A stretch of DNA of 64,000 nucleotides from Oscillospiraceae bacterium. GTDB lineage: Bacteria > Bacillota > Clostridia > Oscillospirales > UBA929. Under the pieces are notes generated by a model that searched no databases, had not been told where the DNA came from, and saw only the letters and a list, made by a program, of their open reading frames with translations. Below are positions 5,517-13,100 of the stretch, in pieces; the first letter of the stretch is position 1; the number at the start of each line of letters is the position of its first letter. The DNA is taken from assembly GCA_009782215.1 (NCBI GenBank), contig WRKO01000003.1:1-64000 (forward strand), written 5' to 3'. The translations under genes and the position numbers were made by a program.

Positions 5517-6227
5517 TTGCGCGTTTACTTTACCAATGAAGGACAGGCCATGATTGACAGCGCCGTCAGCGCCAAATGCCATAAGGCAGAGCTGATTTGG
5601 TGCGACATCGAGGTCGAGAGCGTCGCGTTCAACCGAGGCTTCTATTCGGTGGACGTGGGGTATTACTATTATGTGACGCTGGATGTGTCAATGGGCGTGG
5701 GCCGCCCGGTCAAGGTTTGCGGTCTTGCCACGTTTGACAAGCGCGTCATCCTGTTCGGCAGCGAGGGCAATGCCAAAATCTTCTCCAGCGTGTCCGACCC
5801 CGACAACGCCGCCGCCGCTCAGAAAGCCCATCTGCCGACAGCCGTCGTCGAAGCGGTCGACCCCATCAGCCTGAGTGTAAAGGTGATTGACAGCCACCTT
5901 ACGCCCCAAGGAACCTATGGCAGCGAGCTGCGCGACGTGCCGTCGTCCGTCAGAGATTTCTTTGAGGACGACATCCTCCTGAGCGGGGGCGAAAAACGCG
6001 TGTATTGTACGCTGGGACAGTTCTCCATCATCCGCCTTGAGCGCGACACGCAGCTTGTCATGCCGTGCTACGATTTCTGTATGCCGGAAAAAGAATGCAT
6101 CGGCGGCTCCGACGACAACCCCTGCGATTTGTTCAAGCGCATCAAGTTCCCGGTCGATGAATTTTTCCCGCCCGTCGCGGGCGATTACACAGACTACCGC
6201 GAGCTGCGCGACAGCCTGTGCCGGTAA
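5517..6227 (+). CDS. Conserved clostridial protein, 5'-truncated at the prophage junction
   Basis: From TTG 5517 the product is 236 residues, but the start is poor: GGAGG lies only two bases upstream, and upstream in-frame codons encode CRDKDCLED. Visible segments are WCDIEVESVAFNRGFYSVDV, TFDKRVILFGSEGNAKIFSS and a near-C-terminal CMPEKECIGG with KFPVDEFFPP. I recall this pattern (an internal CRDKDC, then RGFY, LFGSEGN and FPxDEFFPP) from uncharacterised proteins common in spore-forming clostridia. Those proteins are longer at the N-terminus. I infer the true 5' end was separated by the prophage. Function is unknown. A hairpin follows at 6244-6274. Confidence 0.6.
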   Translation: MRVYFTNEGQAMIDSAVSAKCHKAELIWCDIEVESVAFNRGFYSVDVGYYYYVTLDVSMGVGRPVKVCGLATFDKRVILFGSEGNAKIFSSVSDPDNAAAAQKAHLPTAVVEAVDPISLSVKVIDSHLTPQGTYGSELRDVPSSVRDFFEDDILLSGGEKRVYCTLGQFSIIRLERDTQLVMPCYDFCMPEKECIGGSDDNPCDLFKRIKFPVDEFFPPVAGDYTDYRELRDSLCR

Positions 6228-6274: not shown

Positions 6275-6339
6275 GCATATTTTAGAAATATCTGCTATAA
6301 TATGTAAAACGCCAGTGTTTCATCGGGAGGGTGCGGGAA

Positions 6340-7143
6340 ATGAATGTGATTGCCGTAGACGACGAACAATACGCGCTGCATCTGCTGAAAAGCGCCATAC
6401 TGGAGGTTATTCCGGGCTGTACCGTCTTCGGATTTGACTCCTCCGCAGACGCGCTTGAGTACGCGGAGGAAAACAGGGTGGACATCGCCTTTCTCGACAT
6501 CCGAATCGGCGATACGGACGGCCTGTTTCTCGCCAAATACCTGCGGGGGATTTACAGCATGACCAACATCATCTTCGTAACCGGGTTCACGCATTACGCC
6601 GTGGCGTCATACGAAGCCTGCGCGAGCGATTATCTGCTCAAGCCCGTCACCCATGAAGCCATCGCCTGCGCGGTGACCCGTTTGCGCAACCCCATCGCGC
6701 CGCCGACCGTCAGAAGGGTGCGCGTGCAAACCTTCGGCAACTTTGAAATCTTTACCGACGGCAAGCCTCTCCTGTTCACCTACGCAAAAACAAGAGAGCT
6801 GTTTGCCTATTTGGTGCATCGCAGGGGCGCGGTGTGCAGCAACAACGAAATCATGGCCGCCCTCTGGGAAGACAGGGCGGATACGCCGTCTCTAAAGAGC
6901 TATTTCCGTTCCCTAGTGTCGGATTTGATGCTGACGCTCACCTCCAAGGGGCTGAGGGATATGGTTTTGAAAAAGCACGGGCACATTGCGGTCATAACCG
7001 AACGGTTTCGGTGCGACTATTATGATTTTATCGAAAAGCACCCCAGAGCCATCCGCGCCTACGCCGGCGAATACATGACCCAGTTTAGCTGGGCGGAGGA
7101 AACAAACGCCTATTTGCAGAGTGTGAAGGAAAACGAGGCATAG
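6340..7143 (+). CDS. Response regulator with winged-helix (SARP-like) output
   Basis: 267 residues from ATG 6340, chosen because CGGGAGG at 6324-6330 is nine bases upstream; an earlier GTG at 6331 abuts that site. The receiver domain (about 1-118) shows Asp7/Asp8, the phosphorylation site Asp53 in FLDIRIGD, the Thr of FVTG and the Lys of LLKPV. The C-terminal part (about 128-235, VQTFGNFEIFTDGKPLLF) is a winged helix of the OmpR/SARP kind with a short trailing helical part ending MTQFSWAEE. No kinase gene is adjacent, so it is an orphan here. The SLH surface protein downstream is a plausible but unproven target. Confidence 0.85.
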   Translation: MNVIAVDDEQYALHLLKSAILEVIPGCTVFGFDSSADALEYAEENRVDIAFLDIRIGDTDGLFLAKYLRGIYSMTNIIFVTGFTHYAVASYEACASDYLLKPVTHEAIACAVTRLRNPIAPPTVRRVRVQTFGNFEIFTDGKPLLFTYAKTRELFAYLVHRRGAVCSNNEIMAALWEDRADTPSLKSYFRSLVSDLMLTLTSKGLRDMVLKKHGHIAVITERFRCDYYDFIEKHPRAIRAYAGEYMTQFSWAEETNAYLQSVKENEA

Positions 7144-7174
7144 TTGTTTCCGCATTAAAATTGTTAAAATAATC

Positions 7175-7205
7175 GGTAAATCCCGGAAAAATTCCGGGAT
7201 TTACC
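7175..7205 (+). terminator. Intrinsic terminator after the response regulator
   Basis: GGTAAATCCCGGAA and TTCCGGGATTTACC form a perfect 14-base-pair stem with loop AAA, 32 bases after the stop codon. A strong U-run is absent after it, so some bidirectional or attenuating role is possible. Confidence 0.7.
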
Positions 7206-7230
7206 ATTGCGTTCCCATTTTCACTTGCGC

Positions 7231-7256
7231 TTGACTTGCGCATCGGCCTTTATAAT
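7231..7256 (+). promoter_or_regulatory. Candidate promoter for the SLH protein
   Basis: TTGACT (7231-7236) and TATAAT (7251-7256) are good sigma-A boxes but are separated by only 14 bases, shorter than the usual 17. The -10 box is also the start of a three-copy 10-base repeat, so activity may depend on a bound regulator. Confidence 0.45.
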
Positions 7257-7280
7257 CGACTATACTCGACAATGTTCGAC
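7251..7280 (+). repeat. Three tandem 10-base repeats over the promoter
   Basis: TATAATCGAC, TATACTCGAC and AATGTTCGAC follow each other without gaps; every copy ends in TCGAC. They lie on and just after the candidate -10 box, a place where an activator or repressor site would act. Confidence 0.5.
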
Positions 7281-7310
7281 AAACTCATAATGCTGAGGAG
7301 GACAGTCAAA

Positions 7311-9965
7311 ATGCGAAACTCAAAAAAAGTCCTGTCATGGGCGCTGATTCTGGCAACGGCGCTGACCCTGCTCCCCGCGACAGCCCCGCACGCCGCGGCC
7401 GCGGCGGAAACCTTTACGCTGTATTTCGGAATGGGCGAAGCCGAAGACGACGGCAGATTTACCGAAGGCTGGGGCCTGTATACGGATTTCGACTATTCGC
7501 AGAAATACTCCGGCGGCAACTGGAAGGGCGATCCGTTCACGCTTACGCTTGACAATTTCAGCTTTACCACAAACGCCTCAACCGAGTCCACGGCAGCCGC
7601 CTTGGATGTCATAATGAACACAAAAATCATCCTTATCGGGGAAAACACCCTCGTAAGCTCCGGCACCGACGAAAACAACTGGGGCATTGCCGCGCAGAAC
7701 GGCCTGACCATCACCAGCGAAAGCGGCGGTACTCTGAATATCGTCAGCGGAGCAGGAACCGATAACAGCAGAGGGATATCCGTCAACAGCGGCAACCTCA
7801 CCATCAACGGCAGCGCCGTCGTCAGCATTGAGACGGGCGCGTCGGCTCACAGCGCCGCGATATGGACGGCGGGAACGGGAAACGTCACCATCGGGAACAG
7901 CGCGAAGGTCACCGCCGCCGGGAACAACGGCACCGTTTCAAACAACGGCGTTAAGGCAAACAACCTGACCGTCAACAACAGCGCGACGCTCTCCGCCACC
8001 TCCGGCGGCGGGGCAAGCACTGAAAACTTCGGCGTCAAAGCGGGCGCAACCGTCACTTTCAACAGCAGCGGAACCGTTACCGCCGGCGGCGGCCCCGGCG
8101 CCAACAGCATCGGCGTCAGCGCAAGCATGGTCACCATCGTCGCGGGAACCGTCAGCGCCTCGGGGAAGACGGCCGGCATCAAGGCGGGCAGCTCGGTAAC
8201 CATCGGAAACGGCGCCAACAGCGTCAGTGTCACCGCCACCGCCGACGACGACGGCGGCTTTGGCATCCTTGTGCAGGGCGGTATCGAAATCAGCGGCGAC
8301 GCGACCGTGCTGGCCGCCGCGCCCGGGGAAGACGGCGTGGGCGTCAGCGCGTTCAGCGTCTATATCCACAGCCTTTCCACCGACGCGAACCTCACCATGC
8401 TCGGCGGCGGCGCGGCGCTCAAATGGAGCTCGGGAGGGACGCCGTATGTCGTCGAGGCCGGCGTCGCCGGGTCGGACGCAATCGGCTCCGAAGCGCTGAT
8501 TTGTGTAACCTACAGCAGCGACGACGGGATATATACGGTGGACGAGAGCGGGGAAAACGCCAGAAAGATTGTGATTCCCGGCGAATGTGAGCTGTGCGAC
8601 TCGTGCGCTGAACCCGAAACCGTCATTGACGAAGAGGAGGAACCGGAGACGCCCCAGACGGAAGCCCCCTTGGCGGAAGCGCCGCCTCCGCCGCCGCCCG
8701 CTCCCAGCGAGCCGCCGCTCTCCGTTCTCATTGTGGACGGCGAGGAGGTCAGCGCGGGCGAGGTGACGGTGGACGAGGAAAGCGGCACGGTTACCGTGAC
8801 GGTCAATCAGGACATCATCACCGCCGAGCTTGAGAAGGCCGCCGATCATCTGATTGTCATCATCCCGGACGGCGGGAACGTCAGTACAGCCAAAGCGTCG
8901 ATCACGGCGAAAAACATAGCCGATATGGCGGCGAAGGGCATGGATATCATCATACAGTCGGGCGGCGTCCGCTTTGAAATCCCCGCTTCGGCCATCGGCA
9001 TAGCGGAAGCAGCGGACTGGCTCGGCGCGGAAACCCCAGCCGACGTCGCCGTCATCTTCACCATCACGACGGTTTTTGACGAGGACGTTTTGGAACGGAT
9101 CAAAGCCGCCGTTGACAGGCTTGGCGCGGAGCCGGTTCTTCCGCCCATCCTGTTCGCCGCGGAGGCGGTATACGCCGGGCGCTCCGTGGAAATCACCGGG
9201 TTCAGCCGGTTTGTCAGGCGCGCCGTCGAAATCGGGCGGGAGGACGCCGAACGCATCGACACCGCCGTCGTCATTGAGGAGGACGGCTCGGCGCGCCATG
9301 TGCCGACCTACGTAGGTCAGGCTGAAGCCACCGGCTCATGGTACGCCGCCATCAGCAGCATGACCAATTCCATTTATGTGTTGGTTTCAAACGGCGTCTC
9401 CTTTGAGGATGTGAAGGGCGAGTGGTTTGAAGCGTTTGCCGACGAAATGGGATCGCGAAAGGTCATCGCCGGCGTCGGCGGCGGCCTGTTTGACGGCAGG
9501 CGCGATATCACCCGCGCGGAATTTGCCGCCATCATTGTCAACGCGCTGGGCCTTCCCTCCGGCGGCGATTCGGACTTCGGCGATGTGGAGACCGGCGCTT
9601 GGTATCGCGGGTATGTAAGCATGGCCTATGAAATCGGCCTGATGGAGGGCGTTGGAAACGGCCTGTTCGCTCCCGACCGGAAAATCACCCGCCAAGAGGC
9701 GATGGTGATTGTTTGGAAGGCGGCGCGGCTGGCCGGTCTCAACGGCAGCTCCGGCGATCTGACCGATTTTGCCGACGCGGACGGCGTAAGCCCGTGGGCG
9801 CTTGACGCGGTGGCATGGAATGTCGGGAGCGGCCTGATTGTCGGCGCCGCCGGACGGCTCAGCCCGACAGACAGCATCACACGCGCCGAAACCGCCGCGC
9901 TGATTCTCAATTTCCTGCGCGCGGCAAATCTTGTGGACATAAGGACAGTCAGCCGGCCCGATTGA
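7311..9965 (+). CDS. Secreted SLH-domain surface protein with beta-helix-like repeats
   Basis: 884 residues from ATG 7311, preceded by GAGGAGG; this start places a clean signal peptide (KKVLSWALILATALTLLP, cleavage near residue 32) at the N-terminus. Residues about 80-420 contain many short repeats of the type NLTVNNSATLSA / GGTLNIVSG / AKVTAAGNNG, the pattern of a right-handed beta-helix adhesin. A Pro-rich linker (about 460-480) and a domain with alternating strands follow. The last 190 residues hold three SLH modules (ITRAEFAAIIVNALG, ITRQEAMVIVWKAA, ITRAETAALILNFL) that anchor proteins to secondary cell-wall polymers. It is a likely surface adhesin or S-layer-associated protein. It sits directly before two glycosyltransferase genes. 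Confidence 0.85.
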   Translation: MRNSKKVLSWALILATALTLLPATAPHAAAAAETFTLYFGMGEAEDDGRFTEGWGLYTDFDYSQKYSGGNWKGDPFTLTLDNFSFTTNASTESTAAALDVIMNTKIILIGENTLVSSGTDENNWGIAAQNGLTITSESGGTLNIVSGAGTDNSRGISVNSGNLTINGSAVVSIETGASAHSAAIWTAGTGNVTIGNSAKVTAAGNNGTVSNNGVKANNLTVNNSATLSATSGGGASTENFGVKAGATVTFNSSGTVTAGGGPGANSIGVSASMVTIVAGTVSASGKTAGIKAGSSVTIGNGANSVSVTATADDDGGFGILVQGGIEISGDATVLAAAPGEDGVGVSAFSVYIHSLSTDANLTMLGGGAALKWSSGGTPYVVEAGVAGSDAIGSEALICVTYSSDDGIYTVDESGENARKIVIPGECELCDSCAEPETVIDEEEEPETPQTEAPLAEAPPPPPPAPSEPPLSVLIVDGEEVSAGEVTVDEESGTVTVTVNQDIITAELEKAADHLIVIIPDGGNVSTAKASITAKNIADMAAKGMDIIIQSGGVRFEIPASAIGIAEAADWLGAETPADVAVIFTITTVFDEDVLERIKAAVDRLGAEPVLPPILFAAEAVYAGRSVEITGFSRFVRRAVEIGREDAERIDTAVVIEEDGSARHVPTYVGQAEATGSWYAAISSMTNSIYVLVSNGVSFEDVKGEWFEAFADEMGSRKVIAGVGGGLFDGRRDITRAEFAAIIVNALGLPSGGDSDFGDVETGAWYRGYVSMAYEIGLMEGVGNGLFAPDRKITRQEAMVIVWKAARLAGLNGSSGDLTDFADADGVSPWALDAVAWNVGSGLIVGAAGRLSPTDSITRAETAALILNFLRAANLVDIRTVSRPD

Positions 9966-10009
9966 TACGGCGCGGCGGAGGGGTGCGGGCCGCCACCCGC
10001 CCCCCTTTC

Positions 10010-10038
10010 TTGACGTTTTTCAAAGCCTATGGTATAAT
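10010..10038 (+). promoter_or_regulatory. Sigma-A promoter for the glycosyltransferase pair
   Basis: TTGACG (10010-10015), 17-base spacer, TATAAT (10033-10038), 49 bases before the ATG of the GT2 gene. A GC-rich imperfect inverted repeat lies just upstream (about 9981-10000) and may end transcription of the SLH gene. Confidence 0.75.
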
Positions 10039-10086
10039 CCCGTCAGAAAGCGGAATCCATCTTTCACGGCGGGAAGGAACCGGAAT

Positions 10087-11031
10087 ATGAGCAGCATTGC
10101 CGTCTTGATTCCATGCTATAACGAACAGCAAACCATCGCGGGCGTGGTAGCGGACTTTCGGCGCGCGCTGCCGGACGCCGCCATCTATGTCTACGACAAC
10201 GGCTCTGCCGACGAAACCGCCGCGCGCGCGGAGGAGGCGGGCGCCGTTGTTCGCCGCGAACCCAAGCGGGGAAAGGGCAACGTTCTTCGAACGATGCTGC
10301 GGGATATAGACGCGGACTGCTATCTGCTGACCGACGGAGATGGGACTTATTCAGCCGAAGCCGCCGCGCGGATGTGCGCCGAGGTGCTGGAGAGGGGAGC
10401 GGACATGGTTGTCGGCGACCGCCTGTCCTCAGCCTATTTCACCCAAAACAAGCGACGGTTTCACAGCGCGGGCAACAGGATGGTGAAAGCCCTTGTCAAT
10501 CTTATCTTCCGCAGTGACGTCAAGGACATTATGACCGGCTGCAGGGCGTTCAGCCCCTTGTTTGCCAAAACCTTCCCGGTGCTGTCCCGAGGCTTTGAAA
10601 TCGAAACGGAGATGACCATTCACGCCCTTGACAAAAACCTGAACATCGCTGAAATCCCCGTTTCAACGCGGGAAAGGCCGGAGGGCAGCCAATCCAAGCT
10701 GAACACCTTTTCAGACGGCGTCAAGGTACTGCTGATGATTTTCAAGCTGTACAAGCATTACCGGCCCCTGCCGTTTTTCGGGATGCTCACGGCGCTGTTC
10801 GCCGCGCTGTCGCTCGGCCTGTTCGCCCCTGTCTTTATCGAGTTCTTGCACACCGGCCTTGTCCGGCAGTTCCCCACGCTGATTGTCTCCGGCTTTATCA
10901 TGCTGGCGGCGCTGCTCTGCCTCTCCTGCGGGCTGATTTTGGATACCATAGCCCAAAAGGCGCGGCAGGATTTTGAGTTCAAGCTGACGATGACGCGGAT
11001 GATGATGGATTCGCGCCGCCGGAAAGACTGA
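10087..11031 (+). CDS. Family 2 glycosyltransferase, polyprenyl-phosphate sugar synthase type
   Basis: 314 residues. The GT-A fold is shown by IAVLIPCYNEQQTI at the start, VYDNGSADET at about 37-46, and LTDGDGTY (DxD-type) at about 80-87. The sequence then follows the DPM1/GtrB pattern up to about residue 220. Two C-terminal membrane segments (about 227-250 and 258-285) are typical of bacterial polyprenyl-phosphate glucose/mannose synthases that load a sugar onto a lipid carrier at the inner leaflet. The next gene, 10 bases on, encodes a GT-C-like membrane protein, the expected user of such a donor. The sugar is not predictable from sequence. Confidence 0.85.
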   Translation: MSSIAVLIPCYNEQQTIAGVVADFRRALPDAAIYVYDNGSADETAARAEEAGAVVRREPKRGKGNVLRTMLRDIDADCYLLTDGDGTYSAEAAARMCAEVLERGADMVVGDRLSSAYFTQNKRRFHSAGNRMVKALVNLIFRSDVKDIMTGCRAFSPLFAKTFPVLSRGFEIETEMTIHALDKNLNIAEIPVSTRERPEGSQSKLNTFSDGVKVLLMIFKLYKHYRPLPFFGMLTALFAALSLGLFAPVFIEFLHTGLVRQFPTLIVSGFIMLAALLCLSCGLILDTIAQKARQDFEFKLTMTRMMMDSRRRKD

Positions 11032-11041
11032 GGGCCGAACG

Positions 11042-13100
11042 GTGAAGAAGCAACACAGAAAACGCCCGCATGCCGCGGTATGGCTGATTTTGGCCGTAAT
11101 CCTCCTTGAGCTGACGCTCTGGAACCGCCCTTATTACGCGCATTTCTTCCAAGGGGCGGAAGCGTCGGCGTTTGAAACGCAATTCATCACCGATTTGGGC
11201 GGCGTCTATATCGCGGACGACGAGATGTCCGGGGACGCCGTGGAGAGCGGCCTGCCCATAACCCCGGCGTTTGTCTTTCGCGGCCTTGACCGGCGGGTCG
11301 GCAGCGTATACATCAGACCTTACACGGAGCGGGAATTGGGGCAGATGCAGTTTGCCATCCTCTACGGGGACGAGGACGGCTCGCAGAAGCAGACGGCCAT
11401 GACCGTCATCCCCGGCGTCGAGGGCAGCTACCATCAGGAAATCAACCCCTACGGCAAGGTCAGCTATCTGATGGTCGCGCTTATCGGCGAAAACTGCGCC
11501 GTACGGGAGGTTTCCGTAAACAGGCCGATACCGTTCCGTTTCAATCTTTTACGGGTGCTGCTGTTTTCGGCGCTGGCGCTCGGCGCGTTCTTCTTTGTCA
11601 AGTCGGACGTTACAAAAACGGTGTTTGACCCCAAAAGCCGCAAGCAGGGGCTTATACTGGCGCTGGTCCTCGTCCTGTTTTCCGCGCTGACGCTCCAGAT
11701 AAGCCGCTCAACGCAGTATTACAGCCGGACGGGGCCGTACGCGCATATGGTGACCTCGCTCCTTGACGGACGGCTCGACCTCGGCATTGACGCGCCGCCC
11801 GCGCTGTCTTCGATGGACAACCCGTATGACTATTCGGCAAGGCAGCAGCTCGGTCTGCCCACGTATTCCGACGACCCGGAGGGTCTGATATGGGATAACG
11901 CGTACTATAACGGCAGGTTTTATATGCAGCACGGGATTGTTCCCGTTGTGCTGCTCTATTTGCCGTACCGTCTGCTCACCGGCGGCGATTTGCCCAACGG
12001 CGCCGCGGTGTGGGTGCTGGTGTCGCTGAGCGGCGTTTTCCTTGCCCTTTTGTGGCGGAAGATTATTTTCCGCTTTATCCGGCAGATGCCGTTTGTGATG
12101 CTTGTCTGCACGACGGTCGCGGTGCTTTTCACCTCCATGATTGTCAGCGCCGCGTGGCTGCCGCGCAAATATGAGGTGTCCTCGGCCGGCGCGATGATGT
12201 TTGCCGCGCTGGGCTTGTGGCTGCTCCTGCCGAAGGCCGCGCCCGCGGGGAGAGGGGGGGGGGGGAGAAAAAACGCCCTATCTCAGCATTGCTATGGGGA
12301 CGCTCTGTCTCGCGCTGGCGGTCGGCTGCCGCCCGACGTTCCTGCTCGCGTCGGCGTTTGTGCCGTTCCTGCTGTGGCGGTATCTCCCGAAAAAGAAAGC
12401 GGGGGAGACGGTCTTGCTCATCGCGAGCGCGGCCGTCCCGTACATCCTCGCCGCCATGCCGCTTATGTGGTATAACCACGCGCGGTTCGGCAGCGTGTTC
12501 GACTTCGGGACGTTTTACGTGTACCATTCCCCGAACGCTTCGCAGCAGATGAACCTCAACCCGATGGGGACGCTGAGGGTGTTTGGCGTCGCGCTGAGGA
12601 ATATGCTGTTCAACCCCATCGCGTTTACGGCGGGGTTCCCCTTCGCGCTGAACAGCGGAACGATGACGTTCGGCCCGGAGTTTCCCCAGCGGTACAACCA
12701 CTCCCTCGCCGGGCTGATAAACTTCCCGGTCATGTGGTCGTTCGCGGCCCTGCCGCTGCTGAAGGAGCGCTTGCAAACGGAGCCGAAGCGTCTCGTGCGG
12801 GCGCTCGGCGCATCGGTGCTTCTGGGATTGGTTCTTGGCGTGTACGCTTACGGCGCGGTCGGGATGAGCGTCCGGTATCAGATGGATTATATGTGGCTGT
12901 TCCTCTTCCCCGCGCTGGTATGGATGGTTTGGCTCTGGGAGCGGTTCGGCGGAAACGGTTCGCTGGCGAAGGGTTTGTGCGCGGCTTGTCTCCTGAGCGC
13001 CGCCGCCGCGCTGATTCTCCCGTCCGAGGGCGCCCCGTTCTCGTCCGTCACACCGGAGGCGTATCACGCCTTGACGCAGTTATTTGCCCCGTTCGGGTAA
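11042..13100 (+). pseudogene. GT-C-like multi-span membrane protein, frame broken in a run of 12 G
   Basis: The start is GTG 11042 with GAGGG upstream. The frame runs correctly to the G-run at 12254-12265, then continues only as a scrambled tail to 12475. The real protein clearly goes on in the next frame (LSIAMGTLCLALAVGCRP, then a further 280 residues of membrane segments and loops) to TAA 13100. Eleven G instead of twelve would give one 685-residue protein. The layout (N-terminal span, a large outer domain, about ten spans, an Asp/Tyr-rich first loop) fits a GT-C glycosyltransferase using polyprenyl-phosphate sugars, and the partner GT2 gene is immediately upstream. Either a phase-variable off state, a real mutation or a homopolymer sequencing error. 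Confidence 0.7.
12254..12265 (+). repeat. Homopolymer G12 tract inside the GT-C-like gene
   Basis: Twelve consecutive G after GGGGAGA. Such tracts slip during replication and are the classic switch of contingency genes in other bacteria. Reading frames before and after the tract match one protein only if its length is 11 (or 8 or 14). Confidence 0.85.

Follow-up and report, generated by a model that had tools for sequence, protein, structure and literature searches.

The locus

The stretch of DNA analysed here (the window, 64 kb in length) carries a run of 12 consecutive G residues on the + strand, inside the coding sequence of a GT-C-type glycosyltransferase (Table 1). It is the only G/C run longer than 6 in the window, and it makes up the core of a 27-nt homopurine run, the one place in the window where purines or pyrimidines continue unbroken for at least 20 nt. 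An earlier note on this DNA had described a GT-C-like gene whose reading frame is broken at the tract and had proposed that 11 G would restore a protein of 685 residues. The run count and the two ORFs in adjacent frames confirm both the tract and the break. The first ORF passes from its GTG start through the tract in its own frame to the stop at 12475, and the frame 3' of the tract is open from 12201 to 13100, offset from the first by one base. Reading through with one base fewer in the tract joins the two frames into 685 residues, as proposed; the in-phase lengths are 11 G, and also 8 or 14. Homology to intact proteins switches frame within about 60 nt around the tract, which is therefore the obvious site of the shift. 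GC3 is 0.78 in the upstream and 0.85 in the downstream part of the gene.

Table 1. Features at the split glycosyltransferase gene, in window coordinates.
Feature	Position	Strand	Basis
Accessory block: response regulator, SLH-domain protein, GT2, GT-C	6331..13100	+	Comparison with G003
Promoter-like TTGACG-N17-TATAAT 5' of the GT2/GT-C pair	10010..10038	+	Consensus match only
GT2 glycosyltransferase, hydrophobic C-terminus	10087..11031	+	Pfam PF00535, E 1.1e-15
Upstream 404 codons of the GT-C-type gene, GTG start	11042..12253	+	ORF and homology
Jelly-roll CBM-like domain, codons 37-162	11150..11527	+	Fold match only, Z about 7 to CBM32/lectin domains
27-nt homopurine run around G12, mirror AGA-G12-AGA	12247..12273	+	Sequence
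G12 tract, frame-break site (assembled state: off)	12254..12265	+	Sequence
Out-of-frame tail of the off product, stop at 12475	12266..12475	+	ORF
Downstream 277 codons and stop of the GT-C-type gene, next frame	12267..13100	+	ORF

The GT2 gene ends 10 nt upstream of the GT-C gene, and its product is the probable donor-lipid partner of the GT-C enzyme. A GtrA flippase is typical of gtr operons, and we considered whether the pair belongs to a three-component GtrA/GtrB/Gtr-GT-C operon. A GtrB/CsbB-like GT2 does adjoin the GT-C gene, but Pfam scans of the neighbours returned no GtrA-type flippase, the pair itself taking up all the space from the SLH gene to the Asp23 gene, and the pair was not assigned to this class of operon. 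In G003, which to judge from this region is a near relative, the Asp23 gene comes directly next to the homologue of 5517-6227 and the accessory block is absent; either the window's genome has gained the block by insertion or G003 has lost it by deletion. Relatives of the GT2 in G002 and G003 (55-56% identical) stand beside a different large ORF; Pfam gives no match to it, and by eye it resembles another membrane glycosyltransferase.

Predicted fold and homologues of the GT-C protein

Sequence profiles from Pfam, NCBIfam and PDB gave no match to the window protein, and for this reason its fold was shown by structure comparison. An AlphaFold2 model of the read-through protein (pTM 0.84, pLDDT 81) has a GT-C fold over residues about 193-680, with Z up to 18.6 to PMT, OST and ArnT. 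The top 43 structural matches are GT-C-type chains (Z 9.5-18.6) and the next matches fall to Z 7.6, which bears out the GT-C-like description of the gene. The fold is common to this region and to the GT-C glycosyltransferases PMT, OST/AglB/PglB, ArnT and AftB, although identity to such enzymes in structural alignments is at most 16% and the window protein, unlike them, has the extra CBM-like domain (residues 37-162), which sits between the first helices and the GT-C core. The GT-C fold and the adjoining GT2 together imply surface glycosylation as the predicted role. Residues 401-407, which the tract encodes, have pLDDT below 50 and lie between helices 376-395 and 413-429; the loop at this position is short and variable in homologues, and longest in the window. 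On the model, the tract encodes a disordered, length-variable and tolerant loop.

Searches of the genus (six genomes) and the family (eighteen genomes), the window's own genome counted in each, found no orthologue of the GT-C gene, and across the order a match was present in 44 of 394 genomes, again including its own. GTDB contigs and plasmids held no close orthologue, the plasmid collection yielding one Monoglobus protein at 27% identity, and the exact 21-mer beside the tract is absent from IMG/VR. Over the matched stretch most of the distant homologues share 25-32% identity, and with one exception their reading frames are open and free of stops. When 28 of them (20-25% identical) were aligned, every one crossed the tract position in a single frame without a G tract; in 29 homologues G runs reach at most 6 anywhere in the gene, and the G12 position is without a tract in all of them.

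Since single homologous proteins align across the tract, a misassembly fusing two genes is ruled out. The alignment of the 28 homologues with the read-through protein contains 18 invariant columns, D285 and D615 among them, and the window keeps all 18, nine on each side of the tract. Together with the GC3 values of the two frames, this shows that the gene has not decayed, and an old pseudogene that has lost its function by decay is an unlikely description of it.

A candidate phase switch

We propose that the G12 run is a slippage-prone contingency tract which switches a membrane-bound GT-C-type glycosyltransferase and which has been assembled in the off state; we put the probability of this reading at roughly 0.55. 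Slippage of DNA polymerase by one base at the tract would convert in-phase into out-of-phase lengths and back again. A tract of in-phase length would give the full-length enzyme, and one of out-of-phase length, such as the 12 G assembled here, a product of 477 residues from which about seven helices at the end and half of the invariant residues would be missing. The truncated product is what the sequence predicts; length heterogeneity, reversibility, a role in glycan synthesis and a selective value are what we infer beyond it. The GT2 would probably load a sugar onto a lipid carrier, from which the GT-C enzyme would probably transfer it to a cell-surface polymer or protein, and switching would leave part of the population without that surface sugar.

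Frequency of G runs, reliability of the tract length and rival explanations

The window's genome (54 contigs, 2.36 Mb) contains 111 G/C runs with a length of exactly 7 and, in contig interiors, 8 with a length of 9. Extrapolation from these two counts gives about 0.2 runs of 12 or more expected genome-wide, versus 0.7 under a first-order Markov model. By itself the G12 run is only mildly unusual for this genome, and what makes it informative is that it coincides with the frame break; an expectation of about 0.2-0.7 chance runs of this length per genome counts against the proposed switch. A scan of the same genome found no other clean interior G run longer than 9 and no poly-G promoter spacer, so that it does not look rich in such loci.

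The exact length of the tract is the weakest point of the proposal. The other runs of at least 10 G in the assembly, on contigs C13, C22, C25, C27, C30, C37 and C41, lie no more than about 130 nt from a contig end, except on C27, where the distance is about 700-780 nt (at 709-738), and degenerate sequence borders all of them. We had thought of using these loci as support for switching and dropped them on account of this placement. The end of C24 is a similar case, being metK (recognised by eye) with its bases smeared into homopolymers, and the long G runs at contig ends look like sequencing failure. The first roughly 700 bases of C27 (1-709) have 40% GC compared with 61% further in and end in G17/G12 runs; this start is possibly chimeric or foreign sequence.

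Given these neighbours in the assembly, the figure of 12 is not proven, and the true tract might be in phase, at 11 G for instance, the gene being simply intact. The lengths that Illumina sequencing gives for G tracts are known not to be dependable (PMC8808543, PMC9187656), and in work on Bifidobacterium breve, Illumina reads that ran through G tracts deteriorated into repeated G, termed 'G's end' (PMC9187656), which means that poly-G contig ends could also hide real tracts. Caution about interior poly-G is justified as well, because G339, a genome of the same order, has an interior artefact in which G15 lies inside the Walker A motif of an ABC transporter. Unlike the contig-end runs, however, the tract in the window has clean coding flanks on both sides that are homologous to intact proteins, so that reads must have crossed it and its exact length alone is in doubt; moreover, the indel problems that have been published increase chiefly in tracts longer than 14 bp (PMC8808543). 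Were the majority length 11, a tract of G11-12 would still be expected to slip, and an error of length would alter the assembled state but not the mutability of the locus. We regard an error of this kind as unlikely.

A second possibility is that the run drifted upward in a tolerant loop and slipped once, leaving a young null allele without selected switching. The gene is accessory and no other member of its family has the tract, which together with a chance expectation that is not negligible would suit such an event. Both halves nevertheless keep every invariant residue, and the order has further poly-G tracts, in coding sequences as well as in promoters (see below); we consider a one-off frameshift decidedly unlikely. 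Like an error of length, it would leave a tract in which further changes of length are to be expected. In principle, slippage at long G runs can also occur during transcription or translation. Leaky decoding, in which slippage of the ribosome or RNA polymerase at the 12 G would yield some full-length enzyme and the tract would set a level of expression rather than an on/off state, has the G run itself in its favour, but with no conserved shift signal and with the tract entirely absent from homologues it is very improbable.

Relation to known systems

The working system that the locus most closely resembles, by analogy, is that of the sortase-dependent pilus genes bbr_0113 and bbr_1889 of B. 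breve UCC2003, a Gram-positive gut commensal (PMC9187656). These likewise have a coding G tract of similar length, appear in the database record as two ORFs in different frames and, as would be the case here, regain their surface product at in-frame lengths. They differ in encoding pilins and in that their switching was measured by maximum-depth sequencing, whereas for the glycosyltransferase of the window we infer it. The coding poly-G loci of Campylobacter, Helicobacter and Neisseria (PMC8355987, PMC2823697, PMC5084427) also place a G/C tract in a surface-structure gene that is turned on and off by frame, but those genomes have many tracts, with switching shown, compared with the one clean interior tract of at least 10 G in the window's genome.

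The gtr operons of Salmonella (PMC3688519) can be likened to the GT2/GT-C pair as phase-variable, mobile and accessory glycosyltransferase operons for surface glycans. They are switched by Dam/OxyR rather than by a homopolymer, and the pair in the window differs from them in the missing GtrA.

Poly-G tracts elsewhere in the genus and order

The earlier note had described poly-G switching as rarely reported in clostridia. For the order this fits the literature: we found no report of poly-G phase variation there in open-access publications, and the clostridial phase switches covered by a review (PMC11868660) are DNA inversions in C. difficile. Genome searches, however, show that poly-G occurs across the order in promoter spacers and also divides a few genes, and poly-G switching there is probably under-reported rather than absent.

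One such split gene occurs in the genus of the window's genome (G001:C24:9021-9034), where a gene unrelated to the one described above, of PP-loop type as judged by eye, is divided by G14 into 224 codons and a further 290 in another frame; a search of the order found no homologue over its tract region. Another, elsewhere in the order (G186:C3:7218), has an N-terminal domain and a C-terminal part that by eye is nucleotidyltransferase-like, and is split by G11 in an apparent linker.

We searched the order (394 genomes) for poly-G tracts flanked by TTGACA on one side and TAnnnT on the other, with the reversed pattern as a control. This gave 46 matches in 20 genomes versus 0 for the control. Eight of the matches, in G340, are identical copies of TTGACACC-G9-TATGTT (C4:46125 and C5:75902, for example) with an 11-base spacer, and are thus probably copies of a repeated element and not promoters independent of one another; one of its neighbours is a lipoprotein gene. 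Without this element 38 matches are left, with spacers mostly of 15-21, tracts of G8-G12 and an exact TATAAT in 15, more than the TAnnnT of the search pattern required; examples are G264:C9:25551, G327:C7:19026, G059:C112 and loci in G334, G265 and G164. Among 30 genes examined 3' of the spacers, about 19 start with a signal peptide or lipobox as judged by eye, and leucine-rich-repeat-like proteins are included among the genes that follow them. An earlier test of promoter flanks (score of 4 or less) gave a weak result, 13 against 7.0 +/- 2.2, and the spacer pattern was not found in the window's own family.

Judged by their sequence patterns, the spacers look like promoter-strength phase variation across the order, and poly-G slippage looks like a mechanism in use there. 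The promoter-type spacers raise the prior for slippage and are no proof of it for the GT-C gene. The broader proposition would be that slippage is a regular mode of switching in the order, operating both at promoter spacers in front of genes for surface proteins and at tracts within coding sequences, and that the GT-C gene would exemplify the latter and control surface glycosylation in a lineage probably related to termite-gut bacteria; we consider this about as likely as not. The locus of the window joins a known kind, the coding poly-G tract, and the order-wide pattern of promoter spacers is the more surprising by-product of the analysis. If the proposed switch is real, it would be an on/off control of a surface-sugar enzyme in an uncultured gut lineage, and the pseudogene label may be wrong for split genes of this sort in MAGs. 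The spacers, standing mostly before secreted proteins, make phase variation in gut Clostridia directly testable.

The window's genome also encodes four large secreted proteins (G000:C7:5706, C12:39644, C15:54234 and C27:21270; 871-1159 residues within the sequence examined) that have a near-identical signal peptide, LCTN(L/M)GGGFV. We considered these paralogues as evidence of slippage and set them aside, the four exact copies all having G9 in frame. The G9 within the signal-peptide coding sequence is flanked by inverted GCACAAA/TTTGTGC.
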